The translations under genes and the position numbers were made by a program. A stretch of 64,000 nt of DNA from Phorcus lineatus (lineage: Eukaryota > Mollusca > Gastropoda > Trochida > Trochidae), in NCBI GenBank assembly GCA_921293015.1, contig OV121093.1, forward strand, positions 25,926,622 to 25,990,621. The letters are read 5' to 3'. Below the pieces are notes generated by a model. The model worked only from the letters and a program-made list of their open reading frames with translations. It was not told the DNA's origin and ran no database searches. Each line of letters opens with the position of its first letter. Position 1 is the stretch's first letter. Of this stretch, positions 14,004 to 53,568 are shown piece by piece.

Positions 14004-16532
14004 ATGAATTTATCAAGAGGAGTCGTGCTCCTGGTTATCTCTGGGATCTCTGGTATGTATATCTACTTAAAAAATCATAGGTACTTTATCATTTTTTTTA
14101 TTGACAAAATAATCAATATCGATCAATAGTTGTCTTTAATTAAAAATTAACATGTCACAAATAGGATAAATCGTAAAACAAATGTGTAAAACAAATTCTG
14201 ATTCACAATGCTTGCGTGTATTTTATGACGAGTATACTAATACTCATCAATGGTGGTTACATTAAAGACTTGGTATAGAAACCGTACGCTATGGGCGAAG
14301 GGTTCACCACAGTAACACAGGAGTCTCTTGAATAGCACTTTAATTGAGGAGCATCTCACTGTAAAGCATGCAAACTATCAAACCTTAAAAATTGGCAACA
14401 ACAACTCTCTGCACTTCAGTGTGTTCTTTAACCTCCAGGCATATTGAAAGCGAACACAAGCTTTCATAACTTTTAACATTCATTATAAAAAACGAATATA
14501 GATTATTGAATCCCTGTTGACATTACAGATCTACATGTAAGTACTATTAAAGTATGCAAAACAAACACATGCGGTTTCTATCAATTGAAGTTAAAAATAG
14601 AAAACTTAACGCTGTCGATCAGACCATTATTTCAATCAAGCTTCTTGTAGTTAATCAGGTTTTGAAATTCGATAATGATTGATGGTATACAACTTTTGAG
14701 AATAAAGTAATTGATATATTTCACAGTAATTCTACACGCAGTGAGGTTTGGGTGCAATGCTACACTGAAATTCAGCGCAGTACCACCCGTAGTTCGCTAG
14801 TTCCAGCCGATGCCCGCAGATTTCACCGCAATGCATAAGCACAATGGTGTAACGGGCTTTATCCCTGAAACATACTAGCAGCCGCGATATAAGTGAAATT
14901 ATCTTGAAAGCGGCGTTAAACACCAACTCACCTCACCCACCGTAATTCCCCCACCCTACCCTACTGCACTTGACAAGTGGAATGTTCCTTATGCGTGGAG
15001 AGCTTACCCTAGTGAAGTGTTTGCTTAATAGAAATTATAACTGGCTGTGTTGTAAGTTTTATAGTCAGTGGAAACACTACAGTTTGTCACTTAATACTTT
15101 TCCCTGGTAGCATTGCACCCATACTTATTTCCACACCAATAAAATTTTCAAAGTTTCCAGTTTTAGGAGAGGGTTTCACTAAGTTCAATTACTTGTACCC
15201 AATCCTTTCTTCTTTTGAAAAAGTATGTTTGAATCATAGCCTTAACCGCAACAAATAATTGTTGAAAATTGCTGAACAAGTGTATGAACTGACACTAAAC
15301 CTTTGACTTTACACTTCTGTCTTCCATTGGTCCTTACAATGTGACATAGTAATCAAATCGTTGTTTAGTGAAAACAGTAGACCTAAAACTATTGGGCTGG
15401 TTTGTACCGTACGCAGTATATCATGAGCTCTCCACTTCAGTTTCAGGATCCCAACCGTGTCCAGAAAACTGTAAGGAGATGAATAATTCAGCACTCCCAA
15501 CATGTGACAATACCACACGGGCCTGCTCGGAAGGGTGTTTAGTTGGTTACCATGGAAACACGTGCAACATGAGGTGTGATGTTAACTGTCAGCGACGAAT
15601 ATGTCAACAGCGTGATGGTTCCTGCAACTGTTTTCGAGGATATGTTTTCAAAAACGCCTCTTGTGAAGAAGATGGAGGTAATAATCATATCAAAACTAGG
15701 GCTGGGTCTTGAAGAACTATGAACCAATATGTTAAAGAGATACACTTATCAGAAGGAAAAGATCATTTAAATGACAAAGGTTAACCAAGTTAGCAACATG
15801 TACAAATAAATAGCAAATTGTTATCACAGATTAAATTAAATTCACCCAAGGTAGAATGTTTGCTTGATGTTTGTACATATACATTCACATGCTTGCATAG
15901 AAATGTTTGCTTGATGTTTGTACGTATACATATACATGCTTGCATGGGAATGTTTGCTTGATGTTTGTACATATACATACACATGCGTGCATAGGAATGT
16001 TTGCTTGATGTTTGTATGTACACATACAAATGCGTGCATAGGAATGTTTGCTTGATGTTTGTACGTATACATACACATGCGTGCATTGGAATGTTTGCTA
16101 AATGTTTGAACATATACATATACATGCGTGCATAGGAATGTTTGCTTGATGTTTGTACGTATACATACACATGCGTGCTCAAGAATGTTTCCTAGATTTT
16201 TGTACGTATACATACACATGCGTGCATTGGAATGTTTGCTAGATGTTTGAACATATACATATACATGCGTGCATAGGAATGTTTGCTTGATGTTTGTATG
16301 TATACATTCACATACGTGCCCTAGGAATGTTTGCTTGATGTTTGTATGTATACATACACATGCGTTCATAGGAATGTTTGCTTGATGTTTGTACGTATAC
16401 ATACACATGCGTGCGCAAGAATGTTTGCTAGATGTTTGAACATATACATACACATGCGTGCATTTGAATGCTTGCTTGATGTTTGTACATATATATACAC
16501 ATGCGTGCTCAAGAATGTTTGCTTGATGTTTG

Positions 16533-16563
<31 letters not shown>

Positions 16564-19453
16564 ATATAAACTCCTCAAAAAAAGAAACGCAACCTAGATT
16601 TGGGTTTTTTATTTCCACACCAATAAAATTTTCAAAGTTTCCAGGATGCGTTTCTTTTTCTTTTGAGGAGTTTATCTTATTAAATCCTTTAACTGGTCAT
16701 GATAGCGTGACGCTGTTCGAGCGTACTTTCTTTTTTCTGCCTCTCGTCAAATGTACTTTTATATAGAGTTTGCCCTCTCTACAATAACCTATACGATTGT
16801 GTGTTGATGAACCCCTAATAGTTTAGGTAGTTTAGTTTAGGTAGGGTAATTTTAGTGTAGCAAAGAAACACAACTTGTCATGCCGTGACAGGAGATAGAT
16901 AAAGTTTCTGAATTCTTCAGCTTCATTATCTTTGATCCATATTTTTCCCAATTTAGGCGGGCAATATAGCCGACGATGTCAAACTATTTTACATATTTTC
17001 AAAACAATCATCTCCGGAATAGTCGATCATAAATTTGGTAAAGCTGCGGTTGCAGAGGAAGCATTCATAATATGGTCGAGACGATTTCGTCCTGCACACC
17101 CAATTTATTTGATATTTAAAGCGGATTTTCTTTAAAAGGATTAGTTTTGTTAGACAAAATGACAAGGGGCAACTCACTAGTCCTTCGCATCATGTCCTAA
17201 GTAGCTTGTATAAAAAAAATCATGGAAAAAATTTCTTTCTCTCAAAATCATTTGCTCTTTTTTTAAGTATTTGGTGTTTAACTTGTTGATTGCGATTAAA
17301 TTTTCCATTTAAAACCTGCAATGCTTAGAGGTCAAACGGTCCTGAACTCATCCTGAGATGATTTATGACTAAATATCTCAATTCTCACAAATTCTTGCAT
17401 TGAATTAAGATGAGAAACGCAATGTTAATTTTAAAAGCAGTCAATGTTAAACTATGTTATAAAAATGATCTAATAGTGGAATAGAAATAAGTCAAATCGA
17501 ATCCATGCTGAGAGTTATGACTTAATAATTACGTTTTTAAAATATCCTTGCAGGGAATAAAGATGAGAAACGTACTATCAAATTCTAAATGCAAACAATG
17601 GTTCGCATAGAAACATAAATTACTTATTCTATTTTTGGAGACCTAAGTAAGCGTATATATGTGTACGTGTATTTCGCAATAAAATATGATAACACCAAAT
17701 CAGGTTGCCGTTCTTCAGCTATAACATTGCTTTAGATAATTTCATTACAGGATTTTTCACGATTAGATGTAAATCAATATATGACATTATCTATAGAAAA
17801 TGTTTTTTCAAATTCAGCTGAAATTTGATATTTATCTTACCTGGAAAAAATATCATTGTTATTTCTAAAAGAAAGAAATAAAAAGCTATTATTATGTCCT
17901 AATAACATTTCGACGAAAGATAGTCTGATGTTTCAATTATTTATTTCCTTTGTTTTACTTTTTTATCATGTATTGATATATAGATATTAAGTTGGCAATC
18001 AGTTGCACAGCATTTATTCAAATCAATTTGATAAGCACTTAGATTCATAAATAGTATATGAAAAAATATCAAATTGCAAACATGAGATCAGAGTTATTGA
18101 AAATCTGAATTAATTTAATTCTAGATGGCCGATTGTTATTCAAATTACCAGAAGTTGATTTAAGCACAGTTAAATACTTATTAACGTTTTAACAGAATTT
18201 ACATTTAAAACTTCGCAGTCATTTTTTCAGCATTTGAACAAAACAATCGTGTTTGCCTTGTGCATGATAAGCTCACCTTTTAAAGGCTTTCCTTGTTGTT
18301 TTTGTAGTCAGCAGAGAGTGCTTTCTTCAAACAAATGTTTCATCAGTAATTGCTTTTTGCATTTTTTTATTTTGTTTTCACTCCTTTTTTCATTAAAACA
18401 CACTGCTGATAACTAGCATTTTACCCTTTAGCTATAGTATTACCATATAAAGATCGATCGATATCTCAAACTTGTCACTTTATTTCATGATGACCTAATA
18501 ATAATCATAAATTTAACATTTCATTGTCAACAGGTGTGAGATGTAAATCCAATGATCATTGTTTGCACGACACATGTCTATCGGCTGGAAGACGGGATTG
18601 TTTGGAAGGCTGCAAACCTGGGTGGTTTGGAAAGTTTTGTAATCAACCTTGCTCTTCTCACTGTTTCTGTGAACAAAGGTCAGGGAACTGTTTCACTTGG
18701 GCAGAAGGTTGGTATGGAGCAGAATGTCACTCTAGCTGCAGTACAGGCTGTAGTGGCATGAGGTGTAACGAGAACGGGACTTGTGTTGATGGCTGCACAA
18801 CTGGATTGTATGGAGAGACATGTGATCTGTACTGCCCCGCACACTGTGTGTCTGGATGTGATCAGCTGTCAGGAGAGTGTGTCCAGTGTGAAGCAGGTCG
18901 GTATGGTTCAACCTGCCAGTCGGAGTGCGGTGCTGGATGTGCAGGAGTCACCCAAGACTGTGACAGAGACGGATATTGTATCACAGGGTGTATACAGGGC
19001 TATCATGGTCAAAAGTGTGAGTCAAAGTGCACCCAGCGATGTATTGATGGTTCTTGTGATCCAACGACAGGAGAATGTACCAAAGGGTGTGAGAGCGGGT
19101 ACTTTGGACATTTCTGTAACCTGACATGTGAGGACTGTAAAGGAGGCGACTGTGACTCGAAAACTGGGGAATGTACAGGTAATACAATCATACTCTCATT
19201 CTGTACCTGCTTCATCGGACTGTTTAATGCAGTAGCTGACACACATGGTCACATGGAATATAGACTGATATATAAATATCTTTTGGATTCATTATATCCA
19301 TTTAATTAGGAGGCATTTTTCTTTCTTTCTTTGCTATTTTGATATAACAATAAAAACGTGCATTCAGTTACAGGAAAATGGATCCCTTACGTCATAGTAG
19401 TAGGCGTGGTGTTCATTGTGATTGTGATGGCTGTCTCCATTGCCTGCTGCTAA
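14004..19453 (+). CDS. Gene B: tailless EGF-repeat membrane protein
   Basis: Four exons join in phase: 14004-14052, 15447-15677, 18534-19178 and 19374-19453. They encode 334 residues. The protein begins with a signal peptide (MNLSRGVVLLVISGISG), then a short EGF-like module, about six EGF-like repeats, and a membrane helix (about residues 313-332) that ends in ACC followed at once by TAA (19451-19453). In genes C and D the same place reads CCLK and splices on to a tail exon. B has lost three bases net here, which creates the stop before the donor. A conserved cysteine is also replaced by tryptophan (NCFTWAEGW where C and D have NCSSCAEGW). It could be a tail-less decoy or anchor form, or an early pseudogene with an otherwise open frame. 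Confidence 0.72.
14735..14938 (-). repeat. SINE-like dispersed repeat (copy 1, reversed)
   Basis: Reverse-complement match to 55931-56137 in this window, with shared blocks 'gtgaggtgag', 'gtgtttaacgc', 'atatcgcggctgctagta' and 'aatgctacactgaaattcagcgcagtacca' in opposite orientations. It lies in intron 1 of gene B. The style is familiar from gastropod genomes; the family was not identified by search. Confidence 0.6.
15126..15160. repeat. Partial copy of the core of the palindromic MITE at 16566
   Basis: 'atttccacaccaataaaa' and the following 'ttttcaaagtttcca' match 16610-16643 base for base, but no terminal inverted repeats surround this copy. It lies in gene B intron 1. Confidence 0.55.
15447..15677 (+). 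CDS. Gene B exon 2: EGF-like module
   Basis: A 231-base phase 1-1 exon after the acceptor tttcag, donor GGAG|GTAATA. It encodes GSQPCPENCKEMNNS, CSEGCLVGYHGNTC and CNCFRGYVFKNASCEEDG. It has the same length and phase as exon 2 of genes C and D. Confidence 0.85.
15850..16540. repeat. 47-base minisatellite in gene B intron 2
   Basis: About 15 tandem copies of a unit near 47 bases, pattern 'aatgtttgcttgatgtttgt' then 'acgtatacatacacatgcgt' then 'gcatagg'. Because 47 is not a multiple of three and all phases lack stops on the minus strand, a long minus-strand open frame of 258 codons appears. It cycles through three related 16-residue phrases and is almost certainly not a gene. Shorter versions occur at the same intron position in genes C and D. 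Confidence 0.88.
16536..16562. repeat. TA dinucleotide microsatellite
   Basis: An uninterrupted (TA)n run at the end of the minisatellite. Confidence 0.9.
16566..16675. mobile_element. Small palindromic MITE
   Basis: The ends are an imperfect inverted repeat, 'taaactcctcaaaaaaagaa' then 'acgc' on the left and 'gcgtttctttttcttttgag' then 'gagttta' on the right. About 55 bases lie between. It fits a non-autonomous DNA transposon of the Tc1/mariner size class. No autonomous partner is present in the window. Confidence 0.65.
16680..18533 (+). other. Remainder of gene B intron 2
   Basis: AT-rich intron sequence without supported genes. Similar-looking degenerate blocks ('gagaaacgcaatgttaa', 'gagaaacgtactatcaaatt') occur near 17410 and 17570. 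The region ends in the exon 3 acceptor at 18531-18533. Confidence 0.45.
18534..19178 (+). CDS. Gene B exon 3: six EGF-like repeats
   Basis: A 645-base phase 1-1 exon, acceptor tgtcaacag, donor ACAG|GTAATA. The repeats follow the CxxGxxGxxC plan: CKPGWFGKFC, WAEGWYGAEC, CTTGLYGETC, CEAGRYGSTC, CIQGYHGQKC and CESGYFGHFC. The second repeat lacks the first cysteine of the motif (W instead of C), which genes C and D keep. Confidence 0.85.
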
Positions 19454-19562
19454 AGGTCAGTATATAGAACTTTAGATGAATTGCATCTACAAGATCATTG
19501 TTTTGATAACAGTTGTACAACAAAGAAGTAAGTGATAAAGAAGAAATTTTTATATCTGCGAT

Positions 19563-22500
19563 ATAATAGTATGTTTTTGTTTAAACATCATTATTTATAC
19601 TCACCGTTGATAGTTAACAATATGCCCAATTATCCTAATCTGTCTTAATCCGAAAATCCTTACACAGAGTAAAGACAGAGTTATCGCTCAAGTGAGCTGC
19701 ACTCAGTGCCCCCACCAGGTGGCCTACCCTATATGGTCATTGCTTCTTCTGACGGACAGACACGAAGCCGAACGCAACCGAGGGGAGGTCGGGTGGGAGT
19801 TTACGATTGTTAACTATCAACGGTGAGTATAAATGATGATGTTTAAACAAAAACATACTATTATTTAATATACTCTCCGTGATAGTTAACAATATGCCCG
19901 AATACCACTGTGGTGGAGGGGGGCGAGAGGCCACTACGTGGGATAGCTCTGTCTTACAAAGAGTCAAGTTGGTGAACCATAGTTCGATATAACCAGTATG
20001 ATCCCCGATGGGGTTCACCTGTCAACCGGAGATGTTAATCTGGACCAAACCTCGCTATGCGAGGGGTCCCGCAACGGCATGGTCGCCAACTAAGGAAAAG
20101 ACAACAACCACACAACTAAAATTGTCGAAACTTAGATTTATTGTTTCCCAACTGGCCAAAGGACCAGCTGAGTCAACGAGAGGGGGGGGGGGGGGGTGAC
20201 TCCTTCTGAACGAGGCCGACGGAGCTCGTTGTTGGGCGTAAACCTGTGCGCCCAACTGATGAATCCCTACTATGTCCTCGCTGGACACGTCCAGAAGCAG
20301 CCAGCCACGACGTCCGCCACCGCCATGTTGCCGTGGAGGGCCATCGTAGCCGAGATGGCTCTGATCTTGTGCGGGTTGGACTTCGCTGGCGGGTCGAGAC
20401 CCGCGGCCTTGTAGGAATCCAACACCGCCGAGCGGAGATAGACACTGAGCTGTCGTTTGTCTATCTCCCGGACACTAGTCTGGGAATGCGGAATGAATAA
20501 TCTCCTCCTCCCTTGACGTAGTGTCCGTGTCTTTTCGGTGTAGATCCAAAGGGCTCTGACTGGACAAAGGAGGCGATTCTCCTCGTCCGTCGGATCTATG
20601 CTGCCGGAAATGTTGCGAAAGCCGCCCACTGGGCATCATAAAGATTCCTCAAGGAGGATCTCTGAGAGGTCGCTACCGCCTCGGCGACGGACTTGGAAAA
20701 TCCCGCCCCCGTCAGACCCCTTTGGAGACAAACCAAGCGTGAAGCTGGAGAGCCTGGGGGTTCTCGTGAACCCGCCCGCTCGGTTTGCTCATAAGAAGGT
20801 CCCACCTCAGAGGGAGAGGGACTGGGTCTTGGCGGCACACTCTCCGGAGGGGAACGTACCATGCCCTGGCTGGCCACAACGGCGCTATCAACAGGAGTTG
20901 AAGTACCTGTGTCTCCTGTATCTTCGCTACCACGTGGTTCAGGATGGCGGGAGAGGGGATAGGCGTAGGCGACCATCCCCTCCCTTTCTAACGTGAGCGC
21001 ATCGAGAGCCCACGCGGTCAGGTCCGGTACGGGAGACACGTACGTCAGCAACTGGTGATTGAGCCGAGTCGCGAAGAGGTCTATGTGAGGCCTGCCGAAC
21101 CTCAGACACAGACTCTCGAACACTCTCGGGTGCAGCATCCACTCCGTGGAAGGAGGTTTGTCCGGGCGAGACAAGGCGTCCGCGGAGAGAGAGCTCGAGA
21201 CTGTCTACTAGACGAAACAGCTCCGTCACCAGTTGCAAAAGAGCATCTGACTTGGTTGAACCCTGTTTGTTTATGGCCCTTGTAAACCACGGTGTCCAGG
21301 CGGGCGCCCAGAAACACCAGTGACGTCGATGGCTGTAGGTCTGACTTGTCTAGGTTGACCAGCCATCCCAACCGCCTGAACAACATTATCACAAAGTCTC
21401 GTTGGGCCTCCAGAACAGATGGGGATCTGTTGTGACTGAACCCGTTGTCCAAGTACATCGCGAACTGCACATCCACCTTGTGCAGGTATTGGACGATGGG
21501 TTGGGTCACGCGAGTGAACAGCCACGGAGCCGACGATATCCCGAACGGTAGTACGTTCCACTGAAAGTGGCGACCCGCCAGAACGAAACGGAGGTATCTG
21601 CGATCCGCATGGTAAATGGGAATGTGCAGATACGCGCCCTGCAGGTCTAGGGATATCATCGAGTCCGATTGCTCCAGTAATCGCATTACTGATTGCACAG
21701 TCAAGAGTCGAAAATATGGCGGCCGCTCTAGGAAGGAGTGGTTGAACTCCTTCATATCGTGGATCAGCCGCCACTTTTTTGGATCTCGCTTCGGTCAAAC
21801 GAAGACCGGAGAATAGAACCCTGGAGTGAGGTTTTGGAGCGAGAGTTCCTCCACCGCCCGTTTGGAGATGAGCATCTCCACCTGTTCCAACGTCAACGCG
21901 AGCCGTTCTGGCTCTAACGTGCGTTCTGTTGGAGAACAGGTTAGCGGGGGGCGGCGTGTCACGGGAATACGAAACCCTCGCTCCAATACCTTGCAAACGA
22001 AATGGTCCAGATCCAACTGTTCCCAGTTGGGCGCAAAACGAGATAGGCGCCCTCCCACTAGTCCGTCCCAGGCCGGGACCACCTGTGGAGGTAATTCCGG
22101 AGGTACCCACAAGTCATTGCTTCCTTGGGGTGCCTCCGTAACTGCGTCCCTTGCCCCGCTGGTTCCCCTTGTTGGATGTGTGCTTGGGAGAGGGGCCGGC
22201 ATTGGCGCCATGGCTTCTGTCCTGCCGCCCCCCCCCCCTCCCCCTCGTAAGGAAACACTGCCGGAGGGAGTGGGTGTGGGTGTGTTCCCTCTCGAGGCTC
22301 TACCCCCGCCAGCGGCAAGCCTGTTGGTCAACTCCTGCTGTTGACTTTCTTGCCGCTGACGAAGGGCCCCGGCGATCTGCCCATCGAAGAGGGAGGAAGA
22401 CGTCGCGGATGCGGCCCGCAAGCGGTTCCGGAGCTCTGCTTGAAGGTTGGTCCGTGCTAGGAACCCATCACGCCTGAGATTCGTGACCCCCGCAGAGATG

Positions 22501-23003
22501 CGGGAGGCGCACAGCATCATCTGCCCAATGTTCCCAGCCACAGAGCCGAAACCACGGTAGAGGGCCTTCGCTTCCGTCTCCATCCCCGCGTCCTTTGCGA
22601 AGGTCACCATCGCCTGGCAAGCATGAGCAACGTGGTTGGCCAACCCCAAAAATGCTCCTTGCCTCCTTGTCGAGGTGCGTAAAGTGGGCATCCGACACCT
22701 GGTGCGGCACGGAGGGGGCGGCCACTCGCCGGATGTCATCATCCAGGCTGGGGGGAGAGAGAGGGAGAGAACTCTGTTGCACCGGCAGCGAGCTGTGCAC
22801 CTTATCTGCCAATACCAGGGGGGGCAAGAGACGACCTGGCGCCGTGGCAGCGACGTTGACGTCGAAGTCCTTGCCCGCCGCCTGAAGAAGCTTGTGAGGT
22901 GGCAGAGCCACCAGACGCTGAGAGGGCGTCTCCTCCTCGGTGCAGAATGTGTGCTGGGGGAAGAGAGAGGGAGAGAACTCTGTTGCCCTCAGATAGATGG
23001 TCT
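19563..23003 (-). mobile_element. DIRS-type tyrosine-recombinase retrotransposon, degenerate
   Basis: Minus-strand frames follow DIRS order. A gag-like region with low-complexity GGGGGGG and TPTPTPSG lies at about 21795-23003. A reverse transcriptase follows at about 21270-21800 (SLDLQGAYLHIPI, LPFGISSAPWLFT, MYLDNG). An RNase H region (STEWMLHPRVFESLC, DLFATRLNHQ) is at 20596-21174. A tyrosine recombinase block (CPVRALWIY, NPHKIRAISATMAL with the HxxR motif) is at 20270-20629. The reverse transcriptase active site reads YLDN instead of YxDD. Frames are broken. The GC content is far above the surroundings. The 5' part abuts the broken tail exon of gene B at 23004; no terminal repeat is seen there, so that end looks truncated. 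Confidence 0.8.
19564..19863. repeat. 57-base inverted repeat at the 3' end of the DIRS element
   Basis: 19564-19620 and 19807-19863 are reverse complements with about one mismatch, 186 bases apart. A third, partial direct copy (tatactctccgtgatagtta) follows at 19869-19899. Such inverted ends suit a DIRS element, though having both arms on one side is unusual. The pair could form a long hairpin. Confidence 0.7.
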
Positions 23004-23530
23004 GAGAAGGCGTCATTCCCCTGTCTTGCAAAATGTAGACCATGTTGTCGCCATGGGATACATTGAACATGATGAACAGGTGACAAATCAAATACAGTTG
23101 CGAGCTTCGGGAGTGTCTGACGACCAAGAAGTCGAAAGAACGGCGGTAGCTGCTCTTCCAACATCAGACAAGCATCAACAGGACGTCCTGAGACGCTCTG
23201 ATGAAGTTTCAGACAGACCAGGTAGTTATATATTTCACAACTACGATGTGAACGAAACTCTCACAGACACATTCCTAATTTCAAGCTGAAGCTGATGTAC
23301 TTGGAGTTCAACATCCTGTTGGTGGTGAAGCAACTGCAGCCGAAATAAGCATCCCTCTTTTAGCTCTGAGACTGAGATCGAGGACTCTTATTCAGAGTCC
23401 CGACCTGAAAACTAGGACCAACTATTTGAAGACTATATATGTCATGGATAAAACACTTTAAAGAGGTTGTGCTTGGAATTGCCAAAGTTGATGAGAAAAG
23501 GCTAAGTGCGAGTCAATACCTCATAAATCC
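23004..23530 (+). pseudogene. Broken cytoplasmic-tail exon of gene B
   Basis: From 'gagaaggcgtcattcccctg' onward this matches the tail exon and 3' flank of gene C (40655-41250). The first about 35 bases of the exon and its splice acceptor are missing where the DIRS element ends. In-frame stops (for example TAG in 'aaaatgtagacc') and gaps, including loss of about 55 bases opposite 40938-40992, destroy the frame. Together with the stop after the membrane segment, this shows gene B once had a C-like tail. Confidence 0.85.
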
Positions 23531-30060: not shown

Positions 30061-30235
30061 ACTCATAATGTTTCCTTTCTTTGGTTTTCTCAATTTTAAT
30101 TGTCTCTCACAAACAAAATCAAAATAATAGGTACTACCTTAGCACAACTTATTTTTGTAGATGCGTTCGCTATTGGTGCAGATCCGCATGACACAAGTGT
30201 TAGCACAATGCATTGTTATTTATACATTAAAGTAA

Positions 30236-39600: not shown

Positions 39601-41192
39601 ACTAGGGGTCAAAATTTCGAAAACAGTAATTTTTATTTTTCACTACAAATTCCTTAATAAGTGATCAACAGCTTTAAACACAGGTCATGTGTCTTCGTTT
39701 ACATTAAGTCTATATGATTTTTCTCATTTTGTTCTCAGAGAATCGAAATGGAATACTTTAATCGGAATTTTAAGAAATTTCGAAAATGTGACCCCTTCTG
39801 TCAATTGAATCATGCCAAAATTCGAATTTTAATGTGTAACAACATTTCAGTTTTTTCAATATATTTTTTTCATTGCAACAAGAGTATTAACATTACATTA
39901 ACATAACATTAACAACATATTACCATTACAATAAACATTGTGTCTAGAAGAAAAGTCTTTTGTTTCATTCAAATGTATAGAAGAGCCAGCTATGATAGTT
40001 TCGTATGCCAGACAGCGGAATTCGCCGCACTTAGATGCAGATGGTTCTACATCACTCTTATCAAACTTGGCAACGCATTTTCGGTTGTATGTAGGGCCCG
40101 GAAAGGCTCGTTGAGCTGAAAGCACTGGATATTGAAATGCATTGTTTTTACATCTAACTTCACATACGAAAATGAAGTTGAATTATGTTTTGCAAACGTT
40201 TTCAGCAGGTACATTCTGTGCCTGCTTCATAAGGCCGTTTAATGCAGTAGCTGACACACATGGTCACATGGAAAATGGACTTTATGTAAATATCTTGTTA
40301 ATTAATATATCCATTTACATAACACACATCTTTGCTTATCACATTAAACACTTTTTAAAAGGGCATATAGTTCCAGGAAAATGGATGCCGTACATAATAG
40401 GAGGAGGCGTGGTGGTCATTGTGGTTGTGATTGCTGTCTCAATTGCCTGCTGCTTGAAACGGTAAGTATGTAGAAATTTACATTATTGGTATCCACATTT
40501 CCATTGTGTTGAAGTTTTACAACAAGGAAATATATGTTTTAAAGAAGAAATTTGTATGTCTACCATTTATTAAATAACATGTACTATACTGATAATTATC
40601 ATTTTTATCATATGCCTGTAGGATACATGACGTCATCTATGTGGATGTAAAATGGAGAAGGCGTCATTCTCCTGTTTTGCAAAATGAAGACCCTGATGTC
40701 GCCACAGGATACATTGAACATGAGACAAATCAAATACAGTTGCAAGCAACGGGAGTGTCTGACCAACAAGAAGCCGAAATTACAGCTGTAGTTGGTGTTT
40801 CAACTATTTTTCCAACATCAGATGGCCATCTACAGGATGTCCTGAGACGTTCTGATCAAGGTTCAGACAGACCAGGTAGTTATATATGTCCCAACTACTG
40901 TGAAGTGAACGAAACTCTCATGGACACACTTTCAACACCAACCAACACCAAAGGAGCTGTACCATCTAGGCATGTGATCAACAACTCTCAATTTCAAGCT
41001 GAAGCTGATGTACATGAAGAACAACATTCTGTTGGTGGTGAAGCAACTGGGGCCGAAATAAGCATTCCTCTTATTGCTGAATGTTTTGGCCACACTGAGA
41101 CTGAGATCGAGGACTCGTACACTGAGAAGGATTTCTGCCCTGAGAACTACGACCATCCATTTGAAGACTATGTTGTGGATAAAACACGATAA
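30627..41192 (+). CDS. Gene C: EGF-repeat receptor with tyrosine-bearing tail
   Basis: Five exons join in phase: 30627-30675, 36062-36292, 38197-38841, 40377-40461 and 40622-41192, for 526 residues. The signal peptide is MNLSRGVVLLVIYGISG. Exon 2 gives one EGF-like module and exon 3 about six EGF-like repeats with complete cysteines. The membrane helix spans about residues 313-334 and ends ACCLKR, where the two cysteines could be acylated. The tail (337-526) starts RIHDVIYVDVKWRRRHSP and holds several tyrosines; VIYVDV (Y343) fits the ITIM pattern (V/I/L/S)xYxx(V/I/L). It ends YDHPFEDYVVDKTR. Ectodomain architecture resembles MEGF10/Draper and scavenger receptor F proteins. Surface recognition with tyrosine-based signalling is inferred. 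The very long intron 1 carries a foreign gene on the other strand. Confidence 0.85.
30676..32409 (+). other. Start of gene C intron 1
   Basis: AT-rich intron sequence. The first about 110 bases after the donor resemble gene B intron 1 ('tatatctacttaaaaa', 'ctttatcat'). No supported genes. Confidence 0.5.
34132..34233 (-). pseudogene. Exon of the Crypton-like gene (basic segment)
   Basis: 102-base phase 1-1 exon, acceptor tttgcag, donor AAAG|GTACAT. It reads TQMGAIRNAVDISDMM and DKWRPRQVGMRKPMKRK, an open and basic segment. Confidence 0.6.
35120..35425 (-). pseudogene. Upstream exon of the Crypton-like gene
   Basis: Reads GDTSFKFASKYYLLTED, then FFFNEPPQPSVGTLYLGLVK and LSQALDLCEEHFQASSHTK, followed by a stop only 5 codons before a good donor (ACAG|GTAATT). 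The fold is not recognised. Proposed acceptor ccccataag at 35426. Confidence 0.5.
35426..36061 (+). other. End of gene C intron 1
   Basis: No gene. From about 35920 to the exon 2 acceptor the sequence is nearly identical to 48561-48704 upstream of gene D exon 2. An open frame runs through it into the exon by chance. Confidence 0.55.
36062..36292 (+). CDS. Gene C exon 2: EGF-like module
   Basis: 231 bases, phase 1-1, encoding GSQPCPENCKVLNDST through GSCEEDAG. It differs from gene D exon 2 by only two bases (V/L and A/V changes), and the near-identity runs on into both flanking introns. Confidence 0.88.
36405..36691. repeat. 47-base minisatellite in gene C intron 2
   Basis: About six diverged copies of the unit also found at 15850-16540 and 49043-49360. 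The first about 85 bases are identical to the gene D array. Confidence 0.8.
37322..38150. repeat. Two-copy tandem duplication of about 400 bases in gene C intron 2
   Basis: 37322-37695 and 37731-38148 are related copies, sharing for example 'agaataaggttattgaaaaatg' against 'agaataaggatattgaaaaatg' and 'aatgggaagggct'. Gene D has a single copy at about 49455-49735 that is closest to the second gene C copy. Confidence 0.7.
38197..38841 (+). CDS. Gene C exon 3: six EGF-like repeats
   Basis: 645 bases, phase 1-1. Repeat cores are CKPGWFGKFC, CAEGWYGADC, CTTGLYGDTC, CESGQYGLTC, CIQGYHGQKC and CESEYFGFFC. N-glycosylation sequons occur, for example CNSTC, RNGSC and CNLTC. It differs from gene D at about 19 of 215 residues, scattered along the exon. 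Confidence 0.88.
39408..39850. mobile_element. MITE-like insertion in gene C intron 3
   Basis: It begins with acagctgcataccaaacgtt, close to the terminal repeat of the MITE at 52491. Its body (39600-39760) matches the reverse complement of about 52740-52870. The second end was not located. Intron 3 is 1535 bases here against 195 in gene B and 166 in gene D, so most of it is inserted. Confidence 0.55.
39898..40128 (-). other. Open, exon-like segment of unknown nature
   Basis: On the minus strand an acceptor-like tgctttcag is followed by an open segment (QRAFPGPTYNRKCVAKFD, KCGEFRCLAYETIIAG, NETKDFSSRHNVYC) with four cysteines. It has no partner exon nearby and I do not recognise it. It lies in the inserted part of gene C intron 3, so it may come from a transposon. 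Confidence 0.2.
40622..41192 (+). CDS. Gene C exon 5: cytoplasmic tail
   Basis: Acceptor gcctgtag|G; the codon CG|G joins it to the membrane exon. It encodes a 190-residue acidic, tyrosine-containing tail with no known fold that I recognise. Key segments are DVIYVDVKWRRRHSP, ATGYIEHETNQIQLQ, GSYICPNYCEVNET, IEDSYTEKDFCPENY and FEDYVVDKTR. A broken copy follows gene B at 23004-23530. It shares no obvious sequence with gene D's tail. Confidence 0.85.
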
Positions 41193-43412: not shown

Positions 43413-44252
43413 ATTTAAGCCTATTCTATAAATGTTGGTCAACTTGTCATAATTCATTCATGTGAACTTTGACTGAATGCTGTCAAAATGTGTTTGAAAA
43501 ATAAAAAATTACACAGGACCAGAGTCCTGTGTGCCTGAGTCCTGTGTGCCTCATAACTTTTCAAATAATTATGTGATTTTAATGGTATCGAAATTCATTA
43601 TTAGGCGACGGTAAGTCATTTTAATAAAATTTTGGAGTATATGTAAAAATGTCTCTGTTACAAAGTTTTCACAATCCTGTTCGGTTTATAACTTTTTTCT
43701 TAACTTCTCATCTGATTTTAATCAAAGTTGTTATGAGATACTGATTTCATAAAAGTGTGTCATTGTCATCAGTTATTCATGTAGATATATTTTGGTAATG
43801 AAATGCCATGTATTTGGAATAAAAAATAAAATCGAGTCATATATGGATCATAACTAGTTCTTTTATATCGCTCGTTTAAGGTCAAATTCATTACAAAGAT
43901 ACAGAATTACGTGAAAGTTGATTTGAAAAACAAGAATGTTAGATATTTATTTTGGGGCTGGTAATATTAAAAGTAAAAAATGCTGAAGTGATCTATTCTG
44001 TGCTGCCCATGCTAATTTGTCTTAGGATTTGAAAGTGTGGTATACCATGTTATTACTGAGGTCACAAACAGTAACGAAGAAAGATGCATCACCATTTACA
44101 ACGGTGCATCGGACAATGTTGAGAACTCATTAGAGTAGTTATTATTAGGAAAATTAAGAATCGTAAATCTATCAATTGATTTATGTATGGTTGATATCAC
44201 ACAATTTATAACTAGTAAATGGCGTACAATTAAAACTATATAGTGCTAAATA

Positions 44253-45072
44253 GTGCTCGCTCAGCTTCAGTTTCACATAGAAAAGTACAGATTGTCAGAA
44301 CCCTTTCAGTCAGCATACAAAAAGTCGCACAGCACCGAGACTGCCTTGATTAGAGTCCAGAATGACATTTTACGATCAATGGCCAGCCAGCAGGTGGTCC
44401 TACTTGTGCTACTAGATCTTTCTGCAGCCTTCGATTCTATCAGCCATGACATCCTGCTTTCGAGACTGCAGCATACCTTCGGGATCTCTGGCTCTGTTCT
44501 CTCGTGGATCAAGTCATATCTTACAGACAGATCAATGCGCGTCCTAGTTGATGGCATTGCTTCAGAGTCCAAAGAACTGAAACATGGCGTCCCACAGGGA
44601 TCCGTTCTCGGACCAGTCCTCTTCACTTGCTACATCCAGCCCTCGGGGATCTCAACAGGAACCACAGACGATCAGCAGCTGTATATCTCAACCAAAGCAT
44701 CTTCTGTGCCTGCTAGTGTACATCAAATTGAAGACTGCATCCAGGATGTAAGCACTTGGATGACGTCGAACTACTTAAAACTCAACAGCAACAAAACTGA
44801 ATTCATGGTGATTGGTACTCAGAAGCAGTTAGAAAAATTCATGATGCAGAACTAACCATTGATGGCATTTGTGTCACTCCATCTAGAAATATCAGGAACC
44901 TCAGTCTGACAATGAACAACACAATGTCAAGCAAGCAACATGCCCTCAACACAGCCAGATCAACTAACTTTCATATTTCAAACATTGGGAAAATCCGGAA
45001 GTATATTGACAGTGATACTTGTAATGCATCCGTAAATAGCGCTGATGTCAGCTACCCTCTCTCTTACTTCTA
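44253..45072 (+). mobile_element. LINE fragment (CR1/Jockey-like reverse transcriptase)
   Basis: An open stretch reads SEPFQSAYKKSHSTETAL, LLVLLDLSAAFDSISHDIL, VPQGSVLGPVLF and NYLKLNSNKTEFMVIG. The region that should hold YADD reads TGTTDDQQLY, with some residues missing before it, so the active site has been damaged by a deletion. A frameshift near 44855 leads on to ICVTPSRNIRNLSLTMNN. Confidence 0.8.
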
Positions 45073-46650: not shown

Positions 46651-46659
46651 ATAAAATAA

Positions 46660-47041
46660 ATTTATTATCATTAGAGAAGACTATGAAAGCTAACGGATAT
46701 TGATGTAAGAACAAGGCAATGTTTCTATTAGTAGTTTTAATATCAAAAGTCAAATCTTATAAATATGTAGTCATTTTTCTCAAACCTTGAGAAAACTAGG
46801 GTTACGTGTACCACTAAAGTTTCAAGCATTTAACATCTTCATAGTTCCTGTTGAAGTTTAGCTGAAAAAAATAAAGCATTCATAATCCTATTGTCGCTTC
46901 TTCTTTGTCTGTAAACATATATGCGGCAGGTTTCTACAACTGATTGATTGCAGGAAACATTTCAAACTGCGTGGTTTCATAGTTAGTCATTACAAGGAAA
47001 CGATAAGAAATCAGTTTCGTCAGTGTCCTTGTGCAGTCACA
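46660..47041 (+). promoter_or_regulatory. Gene D upstream block
   Basis: Weakly similar to the upstream regions of genes B and C, including 'aaataaagcatt' near 46870 and the core GTTAGTCAT at 46982-46990. A second similarity, to 12969-12988, lies at 46678-46697. Confidence 0.4.
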
Positions 47042-50000
47042 ATGATGAGGTTATCAGGCGAGGTTGTGTTCCTGGCTGTCTGGATGATCCGTGGTATGTA
47101 TAATATGTAAATGTAAAAAATAATACTTAACTCATTCTTTTTTAATCATTTACCTTAGAAACAATTTTCACAACAATAGCTGTCTTTAATGTTAATTTTT
47201 TTATTTTCTGTTATGTAGCATGTAGGAAACATAATATGTGTAACATTAACCACTCATTTACACCTGCTAGTTTCCTTGCGAACTCTCTTCTTCAGCACCT
47301 AATTCTAAGTGGAGAGGACTTATGAACTTAAAGCTCTTGCTATTTTCACATCAGCATTTTAGACAGATATTTTAATGATATGATTATCTAATCAAAAGTC
47401 CCAAATGTGCCCATAAACAATGTGAAAGTGTGGATAACCTTATAAATTCCAGCGGTTGACCATTGTGACGTCATTTCATTGAATAAGCAAGCCCGTTTAA
47501 AAGATGCTCGTTTTTTTAAATATTTCATTTAATGTTAAAAGTGATTGTATGAGAGAAGAAAATCTAGAATATGGAAATGACACGTTATGGTTTTAGCAAG
47601 GGACGAATATAAAGAGATTAGAACATAAAATCTTAATTCGGACTTAACATTATGTACCATTTTGCATTGATTTTGGGTACTCGTTGTCTTTAACAATAAA
47701 GACGTGAAGGAGTTTGTTATTGGATTGTCGGTAAAGCACAGTGAACTACTTATCAATAGTGAATTAATCATTATTATTACTTAAATATAAACCTTGTAAG
47801 CCATAATTGTTACTAGTACATTTAAAGGGTGCTAAATACGATATTAGAACTTATGTTGTTAACGTCTTATAGGCTATTAAATTTTTAAATCACTGTATAC
47901 CAATCTTCTGTTGTTATTGTTACTTCAACTTCCTGTTTCGCTGATTTTCACCACTTCCATACACTTCAGTATGATTCTTTGGATTTATTTGACTTTTCCA
48001 AAATATTATTCAATTTCAACAGTATTAACTATACTAGGAGAGTATATAGATATATATATATATATATATATATATTGACCACAATTATCACAAAGTGTAT
48101 TCAATACTTCATGATATACAATCATGAATACAATTCATGATATTTTAAGTTAACCAATGATCTTCGTTATCTCGTAATGTAGCTAAGATGTTGTACCGAC
48201 AAATTCTTTCATTTGTGTTTTTTCTGTACCGTATGTTTTGATTCAATTTTTTTTGAGTAACTCTTAATGAATGTCCTTCATGAACAGACAATAGATGTTA
48301 CAGACACTTGTCACTCGCTCCTGTGCAACATATTAACAGATTGAAACACTCGCCTGTTTCTCTCTGTAGAAAGTTGAGACTAGACCAAGAAAGTCAGTCG
48401 TGAAACTTTGCCGCTTCACTAAAGATAATTAAAACTGGCTGTGTTTTTATACGTTTTAAAGTCAGTGGACTCACCACAGTTAGTCTGTTTAACCTTAACA
48501 ACAACAACTGAATGTTGAATAATGCTGTAAAAGTGTTTGAACTGACACTGACATTTTGTCTTATCTTTACACTTCTATATCCATTGGTCCTTATGCAATG
48601 TGACATAATTATCAAATCGTTGTTAGATTTAGTGAAACTAGTAGACCTAAGAAATGGGGCTGGTTTATATGAAGTATATCATGAGCTCATCACATCAGTT
48701 TCAGGATCCCAACCTTGTCCAGAGAACTGTAAGCTGTTGAATGATTCAACCCTCCCCACATGTGACCATACCACACTGGACTGCTCTGAAGGGTGTTCAG
48801 TTGGTTACTATGGCAACAAATGCAACATGAGGTGTGATGTTAACTGTCAGCGGGGAATATGTCAACATCGTGATGGTTCCTGCAACTGTTTACGAGGATA
48901 CATTTTCAAGAAAGGCTCTTGTGAAGAAGATGCAGGTAATTATACTATCAGAAATGGGACTGGGTGTTTAAGACATATCAGCCAATATGTTTAAGAGATA
49001 CACTACTCTGAAATAGAAAATCATCTAACTGATAAATTTAGATTTGCTTGATGTTTGTACATAAACATACACGTGCGTAATCAAGAATGTTTCCTTGGTG
49101 TTTGTATGCATACATCCACATGTATGATTTAAGATATTTGCTTGAAGTTTGTATGTATACATGCATATGCATGCTTAAAAATGTTTTATTGATGTTTGTA
49201 CATGAATATACAAATGCATGCTTAAAGATGTTTCTTGATGTTTTACATATACATACACATGCATGCTTTAATATGTTTCCTTGATGTTTGTATGTGTACA
49301 TACACATGCCAGCCTTAAAATGTTTGCTTAATGGTTGTATGAATGCATACACATGCTTTTGAATATATCACATTGCATCAGATTACCCGCAAAATAGATA
49401 AGAACCATTGGTCTTTAAAGCGTTCCTTTTTCTTTGAAGAAACCTGTGACAATATTGGACAAACGGTCATGAGATAAACGTTGGATCAGTAATTTATTTT
49501 GGTGTTATCTTCTTATTTATACTATTTTCGATTCTTCAGCTACTTGATATAATCTGAAAATTACCCAAACTAAGAATAAGGATATTGAAAAATGAAAGGC
49601 TTTGAGAAAAAGGACAGGGCGCACATTCAAATGGGAAGGGCTTTGTCTCATGCGTAATACGCCTCAAAGAACCATTGGTAAACGCCAGACGCTATCTCTT
49701 TAAAGCGTTCCTTTTTCTTTGTAAAACATGTGACAATATTGGATTCTGTTGTAAAAGGTGTTTTTGATTGTCAACAGGTGTGAAATGTAAATCCAATGAT
49801 CATTGTTTGCGCAACATATGTCTATCGGATGGCAGACGGGATTGTTTAGAAGGCTGCAAACCTGGGTGGTTTGGAAAGTTTTGTGACCAACCTTGCCATT
49901 CTCATTGTTTCTGTGAGCAAGAGTTTGGGAACTGTTCCAGTTGCGCAGAAGGTTGGTATGGAGCAGATTGTAATTCTAGCTGCAGCATAGGCTGTAGTGG

Positions 50001-51637
50001 CAAGAGGTGTAACAAGAGCCGGACTTGTGTCGATGGCTGCACAACTGGATTGTACGGAGACACATGTGATCTGAAGTGTTCTCCTCACTGTATGTCTGGA
50101 TGTGAGCAGCTGTCAGGAGAGTGTGTCCAGTGTGAATCTGGTCGGTATGGTCCAACCTGTCAGTCCGAGTGTAGTGCTGGATGTGCAGGGAACAACAAAG
50201 ACTGTGATAGAAACGGATCTTGCATCACAGGGTGTATACAGGGCTACCATGGACAAAAGTGTGAGTTAAAGTGCTCCCGGCGATGTAATGATGGTTTGTG
50301 TGATAGCAGTACAGGAGAATGTACCAAGGGTTGTGAGAGCGGGTACTTTGGACTTTTCTGTAACCTGACATGTGAGGACTGTGAAGGTGGAGACTGTGAC
50401 TCGAACACTGGGGAATGTAAAGGTAACCAATTTCCATTCTCAGTCATGTTGCGAAGATGTCACATGTGACATGGTCACATGGAATATGGATTGATATGTA
50501 AATATCTTGTGTTGATTTATAGTTTCATCAACATTGTGCACATCTTTTCTTTTTACATGAAATAATAAAGATGTACATACAGTTCCAGGAAAATGGATGA
50601 CGTTCATCATAGGAGGAGGCGTGCTAATCATTTTCGGTGTGCTTGGTGTCTTCATAGCCTGCTGCTTGAAACGGTCAGTATGTAAAACTACAACACATGC
50701 AATGATATATTTTGGTAAAAATGAATGTGTATAGTTCTTTTCTGAACAAATGGACTTTTCCTCTTTCAGAATGCGGGAAATAGTGAAAGATGGCGTAGAT
50801 ACAATAGGTCGGAACACTGCAGTACAGCTTGTCCAAAGCCATGGAAATTCGCTACGGTCGGTAGAAATAGGTAACACTGAATACAACACGTTTGGATCTA
50901 GCTCTGAAGACCCGTACAACCACCTGTTCACCATCAAACCACCAGAGGCTACCTTCTCCCTAGCTTCAGATGACCTCGAAACATCTTCTGGCTACTGCGC
51001 TGTGCTCCCCTTGTTCCGTGGCCCATCAGATCAGGGAATAGAAATGAGTGGTGACGGGAGTGGTGAAGGGATTGGTGACTTGAGTGATGAAGGGAGTGGT
51101 GGTGGGATGGATGAAGGGAGTGGTGTTGGGATTGATAAATGTAGTGGGAGTGGTAGTGGGAATGATGAAGCGAGTGGTAGTGGGAGTGGTGGTGGGATTG
51201 ATGGTGAGATTGATGAAGGGAGAGGTGGTGGGAGTAGTGAAGGAGTTAAAAGCGCTAGAAGCTCATTCTCACGATACGATGTCAATGTGCATGATCTCGA
51301 GCAAACAGATATGGAAGAAGCAAGATATGCTATGGAAAATGATCATATTCAAGAACAAAGCGAGACGGTGGCCTTAGATCCTCTTGAAGAGGACACAACA
51401 AAACTAATCCAGATGTCTGAATTTCAATCCGATGAAGAAGATGCATGCTATGGCATCAAAATAGAGGGAGAAGATTCGACTATTGGGAGAGGTAAATCGA
51501 CACACGGTTTTCCTAGTCGGGCTGAAGGTGAAGAGGAAGGGGAGGAGGTTGACCCGGCAGAAGTAACAGATGGTAACATCGGCTCCAATGTTAGCCCTGA
51601 GAATCAGGTGGTCGTGCGATTTGATACCGTTATCTGA
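47042..51637 (+). CDS. Gene D: EGF-repeat receptor with long Gly/Ser and acidic tail
   Basis: Five exons join in phase: 47042-47093, 48705-48935, 49778-50422, 50589-50673 and 50770-51637, for 626 residues. The signal peptide (MMRLSGEVVFLAVWMIRG) differs from B and C. Exons 2 and 3 are the same EGF-like modules as in gene C. The membrane helix spans about residues 314-335 and ends ACCLKR. The tail (338-626) is unrelated to gene C's. It holds SGYCAV (Y413), which fits the ITIM pattern, a SGSG/GGG-rich stretch (about 429-497), acidic blocks (EGEEEGEEVDPAEV), and a C-terminal DTVI that fits a class I PDZ ligand. A second ATG at 47045 could also be used. Signalling role is inferred. Confidence 0.85.
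47094..48704 (+). other. Gene D intron 1
   Basis: Holds a (TA)n run at about 48050-48075 and, from about 48561, the block shared with gene C. No gene seen. Confidence 0.55.
48705..48935 (+). CDS. Gene D exon 2: EGF-like module
   Basis: 231 bases, phase 1-1, two bases different from gene C exon 2. The near-identity covers about 48561-49125, exon plus flanks, while exon 1 and the tail differ. Confidence 0.88.
49043..49360. repeat. 47-base minisatellite in gene D intron 2
   Basis: About seven diverged copies of the same unit as in genes B and C, at the same place relative to exon 2. A minus-strand frame of 104 codons is a by-product. Confidence 0.82.
49778..50422 (+). CDS. Gene D exon 3: six EGF-like repeats
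   Basis: 645 bases, phase 1-1, donor AAAG|GTAACC. Repeat cores are CKPGWFGKFC, CAEGWYGADC, CTTGLYGDTC, CESGRYGPTC, CIQGYHGQKC and CESGYFGLFC. All repeat cysteines are kept. Confidence 0.88.
50770..51637 (+). CDS. Gene D exon 5: cytoplasmic tail
   Basis: Acceptor cctctttcag; codon CG|A links it to the membrane exon. The tail starts RMREIVKDGVDTIGRN, with tyrosines in GNTEYNTF, EDPYNHL, SSGYCAVL, FSRYDVNV, EARYAMEN and ACYGIKI. A repetitive stretch coding Gly/Ser/Asp/Glu occupies 51040-51245, with units like 'gggagtggtgatgaa', and may be length-variable. Stop TGA at 51635-51637. Confidence 0.85.
51040..51245 (+). repeat. Coding GGGAGTGGT-type repeat in gene D tail
   Basis: Imperfect units of 'gggagtggt' and 'gatgaa', in frame, giving GSG, GGG and DEG phrases. 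The mirror frame on the minus strand gives a proline-rich artefact. Confidence 0.8.
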
Positions 51638-51982
51638 TAGAAGTACCAATACATGTCAAGTAAGAGCTTAGAAACCAAAATACAATTATTACACTAAACG
51701 CATTAGTTGTACATACGGCTCGTCAGTTAAACATTAGTGCTCATCCTTTCCTGAATTATGATGGAAAGATGTTTGTACTTGTAAATTTGTATTTGAATTT
51801 ATCTTTTTCTTTAGTGTATTATGGTGATTGGTTCGGATTCAGGTTATCGTGACAGATCACCTGAAAAGTGTATTTTTTTGTAATAATATGTTTGAAATGA
51901 ATTATTGTCACTTTGAATTATTAATTCTATGTAAAAAGTTCTATGAATTTATGCTCATCCATCTCAACGTTGGGATTGAATC

Positions 51983-51988
51983 AATAAA
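51983..51988 (+). terminator. Likely gene D polyadenylation signal
   Basis: AATAAA 346 bases after the stop, the first canonical signal downstream. If used, the orphan exon at 53466 lies outside this transcript form. Confidence 0.5.
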
Positions 51989-52490
51989 AACCTTGAAATT
52001 ATAATGCTGAATACCTGCAAGATTACGCAGTGCCCACATATCTCTGACATGACCTCTGACCTCTGTTGGCTTACTACCACTTGTAGTAACATATGCATCT
52101 GACTTTAAATTTGATCCTTGTAAGAAATCGAAACTAATTTAAACATTTCCCAGGATTATATGGGCTACGAACTCTGACCAGGACTGATATCTGACATGAA
52201 ACAACTAGACGTTTTGAGTGTTGAGTATTCCTTTGATATGTAAATGACTTTAAGTGAATCAATATATGTGTTAACAGATCAAGAATTGAAATGTCTTTGA
52301 AAATTTTAACTTTTATTCGCCATATTACTCTAGCAAAACTAAAGAGTTCTTGAACCTGGAAAACGATACCCAATTCTGAGTATGTAAATGTTGTCGTACT
52401 AATCATCTTAAAATACCATTACTTAAATGAGTTCGGTGAATACTTTTTAGCAATTATTTAGATATGAGAAAATTGTTTTAGTACAATTTC

Positions 52491-53097
52491 TACAGCTGCA
52501 TACCAAAAGTTTGTTCACTTGATACTGTTTCTTAGTGAAAATATCATGTCATTTAGGTTTAGTTTGAACAATCAAAATAACTTGAACAGAACGGAAAAAG
52601 AATTCCCCACTGTCCCCTTTAATTTATTTTGGCATAGTCCAGTCTCTCGTGCAAAAACATTAAAATTTTGGCATGAGAAAATAGACAAAGGGGTTAATTT
52701 TCAAAACTATAATTTCCTTAAATTTCGATTTGAATAATCCATTTCAACACTCTGAGAAAAGAATAAGCATATTGACTAAATAATCACTAAATGCAAACGA
52801 ACAAACATGACTTGTGTCAAAATCTGATGATCACCTATAAAGGTTTCCGTAGAGAAATTTAAATTAGTAGTAACTCAATTTTGACTTTACTTTAAGTAAA
52901 ACTGTTACGGTTTACTGTTAGATATGATATATAATTGCGTTAATTGTTAAAGTTTCCTCACTTCTGTATCTTAATTTTAACATGATCCGTTCCGTTTTTT
53001 TCTCTCTACTACAATGCCTCAAAAACATCCAAAATTACATGATATTTGCACTAAAATACGCAGGTATGTAAAACATACTTTTGGTATGCAGCTGTAT
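52491..53097. mobile_element. MITE with 20-base perfect terminal inverted repeats
   Basis: tacagctgcataccaaaagt at 52491-52510 is the exact reverse complement of acttttggtatgcagctgta at about 53077-53096. The element is about 600 bases without a transposase. The outer TA on each side may be the target duplication. A related insertion is at 39408, and a lone end-like match (tacagctgcataccgaaa) is at 58512. Confidence 0.75.
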
Positions 53098-53465
53098 GTA
53101 TTGTCAATGATAGTTGTAATTAAAAAGTATGTGGAATAAATGTTTTCTTGGTGAACGTAGCTTCTACAAGTATGTTCACAGAACCATTCCTTACTATTAC
53201 AACATTCTACATTAAGTTCCCGTTCCTGCGGCAGGTGAGGTGAGTGGGATAAGCACACCTCTGTACCACCCACAGGGTATGTGTATTAAGTGTATATGTG
53301 TATTTAATGTCAAATTATAGCATTCAATCATAACGATGTGGACGTAATGGACTATCGTCCTATTTTATATATAATACTGTAAATAGTATAATCATGTAAT
53401 GCGTGATGATGTCATAAATATTGTGTCATATCCATATGTATTATCATGACATCATGCATGTGCAG

Positions 53466-53568
53466 GAGACGCCGCGCCTACGACGACGTACCAGAGATTG
53501 TGAACCCTGAGGAGCTATTCGAAGGGTCCGAGGATTTCCCCACTCTCGGGTTTCGCAATCTCCGGTAG
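53466..53568 (+). CDS. Orphan cytoplasmic-tail exon, possible alternative tail of gene D
   Basis: A GC-rich island in AT-rich DNA, after acceptor catgtgcag. It is open as RRRAYDDVPEIVNPEEL then FEGSEDFPTLGFRNLR and stops with TAG at 53566-53568. Its entry phase (one base completing a codon) matches the CG| end of the gene D membrane exon; the join would read CCLKRRRRAYDDV, a normal stop-transfer followed by a short acidic tail with one YDDV motif. Alternatively CG|GTAGGT at 53564/53565 is a donor, making a 99-base phase 2-2 cassette exon. It may also be left from a lost gene copy. Confidence 0.5.

Follow-up and report, generated by a model that had tools for sequence, protein, structure and literature searches.

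The engulfment receptors MEGF10, Draper, and CED-1 carry NPxY and YxxL/ITAM-like motifs in their tails and an N-terminal EMI domain. MEGF10 orthologues are reported from Aplysia (PMC9334734). In Siglec-11/16 of primates, repeated gene conversion keeps the region for the extracellular part near-identical up to a boundary close to where the shared region ends, and the outputs differ (PMC5701461). Among CEACAM1 and relatives with an ITAM, such as CEACAM3, the ligand-binding domains are kept alike by conversion and recombination, and decoy receptors have been proposed as an outcome (PMC2832619, PMC13278318). Among invertebrates, clustered receptors of Botryllus allorecognition have been proposed to have activating and inhibitory outputs on the basis of ITIM and hemITAM motifs (PMC12065747). 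Ectodomain conversion over different tails in an EGF family was not found in the literature searched, which left out most subscription papers, and no paper was found there that joins any four of the five topics paired receptors, mollusc, gene conversion, scavenger receptor, and EGF.

The gene cluster described here lies in a 64,000-nucleotide stretch of DNA from the gastropod Phorcus lineatus (the window, meaning the whole stretch analyzed) and includes three neighboring plus-strand genes, B, C, and D.

Gene Models and Predicted Proteins

The exon models of B, C, and D were derived from the genomic sequence alone, with borders and phase checked, and are as follows.

14004-14052, + strand: gene B exon 1, signal peptide (MNLSRGVVLLVISGIS), ending in phase 1; 1 of 49 bases unlike C
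15447-15677, + strand: gene B exon 2, EGF-type, 231 nt
18534-19178, + strand: gene B exon 3, EGF-type, 645 nt; a conserved Cys changed to Trp at one site
19374-19455, + strand: gene B transmembrane (TM) exon, 82 nt; in-frame TAA at 19451
30627-30675, + strand: gene C exon 1, signal peptide
36062-36292, + strand: gene C exon 2, EGF-type, 231 nt
38197-38841, + strand: gene C exon 3, EGF-type, 645 nt
40377-40461, + strand: gene C TM exon, 85 nt
40622-41192, + strand: gene C tail exon, 571 nt including the stop; 190-residue tail with tyrosines
47042-47093, + strand: gene D exon 1, signal peptide (MMRLSGEVVFLAVWMIR); 33% unlike B and C
48705-48935, + strand: gene D exon 2, 231 nt; 2 bases unlike C
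49778-50422, + strand: gene D exon 3, 645 nt; 40 bases unlike C
50589-50673, + strand: gene D TM exon, 85 nt
50770-51637, + strand: gene D tail exon, 868 nt including the stop; 289-residue tail with the C-terminus DTVI

Every intron border in these models is GT/AG. Intron phases 1, 1, and 1 are common to the three genes, and phase 2 follows the TM exon in C and D, where one separate exon behind this phase-2 intron encodes the tail. The model proteins are 334 (B), 526 (C), and 626 (D) residues long, and each has a hydrophobic N-terminal start and one strong membrane segment (at approximately residues 315-333). An AATAAA occurs at 51983, downstream of the D stop codon. A sequence-only reading of this DNA had proposed a common exon architecture, which holds for the 231-nt and 645-nt exons and the phases of all three genes; the 85-nt TM exon is found in C and D only, its counterpart in B having 82 nt. 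The tail sizes given in that reading (190 residues in C, 289 in D) match the exon models with the codon split by the last intron included. That the observed similarity exceeds chance is borne out by long DNA alignments, both across the ectodomains and tail to tail between B and C, and by the contrast between ectodomain and flank in C and D (Fisher P ~1e-31).

The ectodomains of C and D are near-identical, with 270 of 291 residues in common and 21 different (dN/dS 0.33, 0.16-0.61). The earlier description of a shared ectodomain fits this pair, whereas B shares only 225 of 291 residues with C and 230 of 291 with D. Cysteines make up 51 of the 290 ectodomain codons in B and 52 in both C and D, and the EGF unit C..G.(Y/W)G..C is repeated six, six, and seven times in B, C, and D, respectively. 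The best PDB match of the ectodomain was SCARF1 (8hna), with an E-value of 0.007 for the single sequence and 0.002 by profile over approximately 42 residues. Standard Pfam EGF models gave no match at E<=1 except for EGF_TEN (E 0.61, far under its cut-off); hence, the SCARF1-like EGF label is based on the PDB match together with the repeated unit. The sole other Pfam match at E<=1 was PF07204 (E 0.0019 and 0.00028, below cut-off), which fell on the membrane segment and was set aside as hydrophobic-segment similarity. An EMI domain was not found in C or D by the Pfam scan, nor was the CCxGY box, a mark of Nimrod receptors, found in B, C, or D. An AlphaFold2 model of exon 3 from a three-row alignment had a mean pLDDT of 34.6, too poor for use. 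No relatives were confirmed among viral contigs (25 pattern stretches) or genome contigs (65), both being collections that hold no animal genomes. Overall, B, C, and D are predicted to be tandem paralogues that encode single-pass membrane receptors with a SCARF1-type EGF ectodomain spread over two exons.

A fourth EGF-type gene, gene A, is located at 5724-7103 on the minus strand and runs on below 4.6 kb. Its ectodomain matched that of C at 33% over 163 residues (E 6e-20, tblastn without composition correction). Judging from the sequence, its membrane segment and tail are split over several small exons, and at least three tail layouts are therefore present in the window. A minus-strand fragment at 12523-12681 is 47% identical over 53 residues to an ectodomain exon of gene A and is probably a relic. 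The window also includes a fragment of a sulfotransferase gene at 58670-59449 on the minus strand (PF00685, E 7.5e-09), as well as the end of a seven-membrane receptor at 1664-1966 with a weak secretin-family match (PF00002, E 0.0056, below cut-off).

Loss of the Tail in Gene B

Two features were identified downstream of the TM exon of B.

19569-23003, - strand: retroelement-bearing insert in B; reverse transcriptase domain at 21102-21794 (- strand)
23004-23470, + strand: defunct remnant of the B tail exon, C-type; 391 of 453 aligned bases match C

By repeat search and blastn, B and C are alignable through the TM exon into the next intron as far as 19568 in B and 40572 in C, and again from 23004 and 40655. 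Between these points B contains an insert of 3,435 bases with a minus-strand reverse transcriptase frame (RVT_1, E 1.2e-18). The insert takes the place of the remainder of the intron between the TM and tail exons, including its splice acceptor, and of the initial 33 nt of the tail exon; together these account for 82 bases of C that are missing in B. An inverted repeat of 59 nt (19563-19621/19806-19864; 98% complementary) marks its left end. The insert may be of the DIRS type. In addition, three bases are missing from the TM exon of B relative to C and D. This loss gives rise to the TAA at 19451, and the B protein therefore stops just past the membrane segment.

The tail relic carries several indels relative to C, part of them frame-breaking. 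Because a relic of the C tail exon persists beyond B, the tail type of B is that of C, and the absence of a tail in B is a secondary loss. The view of tailless B as a type of its own is thus contradicted by the relic, which is cut off by the stop in the TM exon and by the insert. Ahead of the frame break, dN/dS in the relic is 0.73 with a wide interval (0.32-1.70), compared to 0.38 (0.25-0.58) in the B-C ectodomain. This pattern is compatible with relaxed constraint on the tail of B alone, and, as a value shared by B and C, dN/dS cannot date the loss. The 876 ectodomain bases of B include no stop and no indel relative to C and D.

Other traces of mobile elements were observed in the window. 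These included a reverse transcriptase frame at 44250-44855 (RVT_1, E 5.8e-21), an integrase-like frame at 32410-32727 (E 7.7e-05, below cut-off), and a Tc3-type transposase helix-turn-helix at 11906-12241 (E 0.00013, below cut-off). Additionally, an inverted pair with one member in intron 3 of C (39404-39830) and the other at 52656-53100, just upstream of an exon-like frame at 53466, matched at 67.5% and is probably a mobile element.

Mosaic Divergence of Genes C and D

Two tracts of low divergence were delimited between C and D.

35918-36493, + strand: C side of a recent exchange tract with D that spans exon 2; counterpart in D approximately 48561-49136
37878-38845, + strand: C side of an older C/D tract covering the end of intron 2 and exon 3; D side 49459-50426; 94.5% identical

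The p-distance between C and D was 0.359 upstream, 0.327 in the signal exon, and 0.387 at the start of intron 1, but only 0.007 at the end of intron 1, 0.009 in exon 2, and 0.000 at the start of intron 2. It was 0.043 at the end of intron 2 and 0.062 in exon 3, followed by 0.296 at the end of intron 3 and 0.165 in the TM exon (14 differences in 85 bases), and intron 4 was at chance level. Over 35933-36492, C and D are identical at 558 of 560 bases, and the introns flanking exon 2 differ at 1 of 140 and 0 of 100 positions. The left edge of the tract is sharp, as identity changes from 32/76 to 80/80 in adjacent windows of 80 columns, and the noncoding contrast between tract and flank is strong (Fisher P 1.3e-31). 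Constraint may account for part of the low distance at the end of intron 1, but even there C-D remains far below both B-C and B-D. Within exons 2 and 3, a run test on all three pairs gave P 0.011 for C-D, whose longest agreement spanned 20 variable sites, and 0.77 and 0.12 for the others.

The exon-2 and exon-3 tracts differ in divergence (3/471 versus 53/945 differences, P 6.8e-7), which argues for more than one exchange event. As for direction, the noncoding distance between B and D falls from 102/287 outside the tract to 15/133 inside (P 9e-8), while that between B and C is unchanged (48/306 versus 16/133, P 0.38), a contrast that favors D as the recipient. These distances support, but do not prove, that the D ectodomain was overwritten by sequence of the C lineage. 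The history appears more complicated than a single donor: toward the end of exon 3, a cluster of sites in D matches B and not C, with a longest B-D run of 4 that falls short of significance (P 0.12). The B-C distance was 11-18% in the upstream region, the ends of intron 1, exons 2-4, and the tail relic, with exceptions in the signal exon (2%) and at the starts of introns 2 and 4 and the end of intron 3 (24-30%).

A 47-bp minisatellite was found in intron 2 of B (15854-16533, 14.4 copies), C (36521-36689, 3.6 copies), and D (49043-49356, 6.7 copies), and it could promote exchange among the three genes. The sample of the mosaic analysis is three copies in one assembly, where assembly error or haplotype mixing is a possible source of the near-identity between C and D.

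Tails of C and D

Homology between the C and D tails was not found by BLASTP (E 2.0) or by hhalign (probability 0.1%, using a two-row C/B profile with Neff 1.05, hence a weak profile), and their p-distance in a DNA alignment was 0.580, compared to 0.544-0.623 in 10 shuffles. A relationship between the two tails was thus rejected at the present sensitivity of these methods. The sequence-only reading held that the intracellular parts of B, C, and D all differ and named mutually aligning tails as evidence against itself. Such an alignment exists for B and C (the 391 of 453 bases above) and was not obtained for C and D. The claim survives for C and D, which are unrelated by alignment, but not for B, which is of the C type. 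Three distinct outputs are ruled out by the dead copy of the C tail in B. Two are seen instead, one of the B/C type and one of D, because B and C have the same type of tail and that of B is dead.

The Gly/Ser/acidic stretch of the D tail is encoded by a 12-bp tandem repeat at approximately 51046-51240 and is likely variable in length. The DTVI end of this tail would fit a class I PDZ ligand. No ITAM was present in either tail and NPxY had zero occurrences in both. An ITIM-like match occurred once per tail, a count reached by 28% of shuffled C tails and 24% of shuffled D tails, while Y..[LI] occurred zero times in C and once in D (P 0.45). Dibasic pairs in the C tail were the sole motif above chance (P 0.040, one of nine motifs). 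An ITIM/ITAM reading of the two tails was rejected, as the matches are no commoner than in shuffles. No charged residue occurs in the 19-residue segments of highest hydrophobicity in B, C, and D, so that adaptor pairing across the membrane is not indicated.

One further candidate exon was examined downstream of D.

53466-53564, + strand: exon-like open frame, 99 nt, phase 2 to 2; plausible exon

It is open in one of three frames, has a GC content of 0.59 over 53465-53564, and is situated approximately 1.5 kb past the AATAAA at 51983. No tblastn match was found with the B, C, D, or gene A proteins as queries, and its peptide had no Pfam match at E<=1. What had been described as a fourth tail-like exon is therefore kept as a plausible exon of 99 nt but, given the lack of tblastn and Pfam matches and its position past the AATAAA, is not assignable as a fourth tail of the family.

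Evaluation of Alternative Explanations

The locus probably represents a set of tandem EGF paralogues in which B lost its tail and D had its ectodomain overwritten by the C lineage over an unrelated tail. B and C would be sister copies with the same tail type, and B would have lost its tail via a small deletion creating a stop after the membrane segment and via the retroelement insert, so that no more than a membrane form without a tail could now be made from it. D would be an older paralogue, distinct in its upstream region, signal exon, and membrane exon and carrying an unrelated tail, and C-lineage sequence would have replaced its ectodomain exons in more than one exchange, either by gene conversion or by an equivalent double crossover. 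The C and D proteins may recognize an identical or near-identical ligand and relay it to different internal partners, conceivably in an immune role; a different output is plausible because the tail sequences are unrelated. B, if expressed, would bind without signaling. However, it may not bind alike, because 61-66 of its 291 ectodomain residues differ and one conserved Cys is lost, and the loss of this Cys is more in keeping with decay than with a working decoy.

Ordinary divergence of tandem duplicates, with C and D tails homologous beyond recognition, an ectodomain that is merely conserved, and neither exchange nor swapped output, appears distinctly unlikely. The introns beside exon 2 match as closely as the exon itself, against a noncoding divergence of 36-39% near the signal exon, and protein conservation therefore cannot explain the C-D pattern. 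Moreover, the C-D tails are at the shuffled level while the B-C tails stay 86% identical. Such divergence may nonetheless be true of the C/D tail alone. In favor of ordinary divergence, disordered tails evolve fast, homology persists between the C and D TM exons, and the tail exon is behind the same phase-2 intron in both. A somewhat less doubtful alternative, though still an unlikely one, is a decaying unstable cluster, with B as a pseudogene, with housekeeping or developmental roles for the EGF proteins C and D, and with neutral exchange driven by intron repeats. The stop, insert, and lost Cys of B all speak for this alternative, as do the minisatellite in intron 2 of each gene and the many mobile elements in the window; against it, the B ectodomain is free of stops and indels and has a dN/dS of 0.38 relative to C, while the tail relic has several indels, a combination that fits an ectodomain constrained for much of its history.

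It is also improbable that C and D are true paired activating and inhibitory immune receptors with the same ligand, the same cells, and opposite outputs. They are adjacent genes with different tails and with near-identical ectodomains kept alike by exchange, as in Siglec-11/16 and in CEACAM1 with its ITAM relatives, but they have no ITAM, an ITIM-like match at chance level, and an uncharged membrane segment. Because their ectodomain is not immunoglobulin-like, membership in the known paired-receptor families is excluded, and the two may still work alike. A broader proposal is that this is an EGF-based invertebrate paired-receptor system, convergent with Siglec/CEACAM, in which exchange copies one ectodomain onto unrelated tails at the phase-2 boundary and B acts as a tailless decoy; it, too, is regarded as doubtful.

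If the outputs of C and D differ in function, the homogenization of ectodomains over divergent tails, known from the vertebrate paired receptors considered here, would extend to a non-immunoglobulin family and to another animal. With two tails, one near-identical ectodomain, and a natural tailless control adjacent to them, the locus makes this question experimentally accessible. If the outputs do not differ, it would provide a clear case of a small cluster that gains and loses signaling tails.

Comparison with Known Systems

Similar to SCARF1 and other class F scavenger receptors, the B, C, and D models have a repeated EGF unit and a single membrane segment, with a long tail in C and D. The SCARF1 match covers only approximately 42 residues, and no counterpart was found for the tails here. 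MEGF10, Draper, and CED-1 likewise combine an EGF-repeat ectodomain, a single membrane segment, and a tail with tyrosines, but their NPxY and ITAM-like motifs are absent from the C and D tails and their EMI domain is absent from the models. The Botryllus allorecognition receptors are comparable as clustered receptors of an invertebrate; however, the proteins are unrelated to B, C, and D, in which the ITIM and hemITAM motifs were not found.

The sequence-only reading had likened the locus to paired receptors with common recognition and changed output. The recognition part of this comparison is retained on stronger grounds, as the ectodomain exons of C and D are homogenized but their upstream regions, signal exons, TM exons, and tails are not. 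The output part is weakened by the presence of two tail types, the lack of an ITAM, ITIM-like matches at chance, and the uncharged membrane segment. Specifically, near-identical ectodomains in neighboring genes were found for C and D (270/291) and not for B, and similarity maintained by exchange was found among three copies of one genome. Opposing tail motifs or a charged membrane residue were not found in C or D (ITIM-like P 0.28 and 0.24).

The Siglec-11/16 pair is similar in having ectodomains homogenized over different tails, but it consists of immunoglobulin-like lectins with known inhibitory and activating functions in several species, whereas C and D are of EGF type, from one genome, and show no motifs indicative of opposite signs. 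The CEACAM family resembles C and D in its close ligand-binding domains kept alike by conversion and recombination. There, ITIM and ITAM define the outputs and conversion is centered on the N domain exon, whereas neither motif is above chance in the C and D tails. Thus, while it fails the motif test, the C/D case resembles Siglec-11/16 and CEACAM in the way it evolved.
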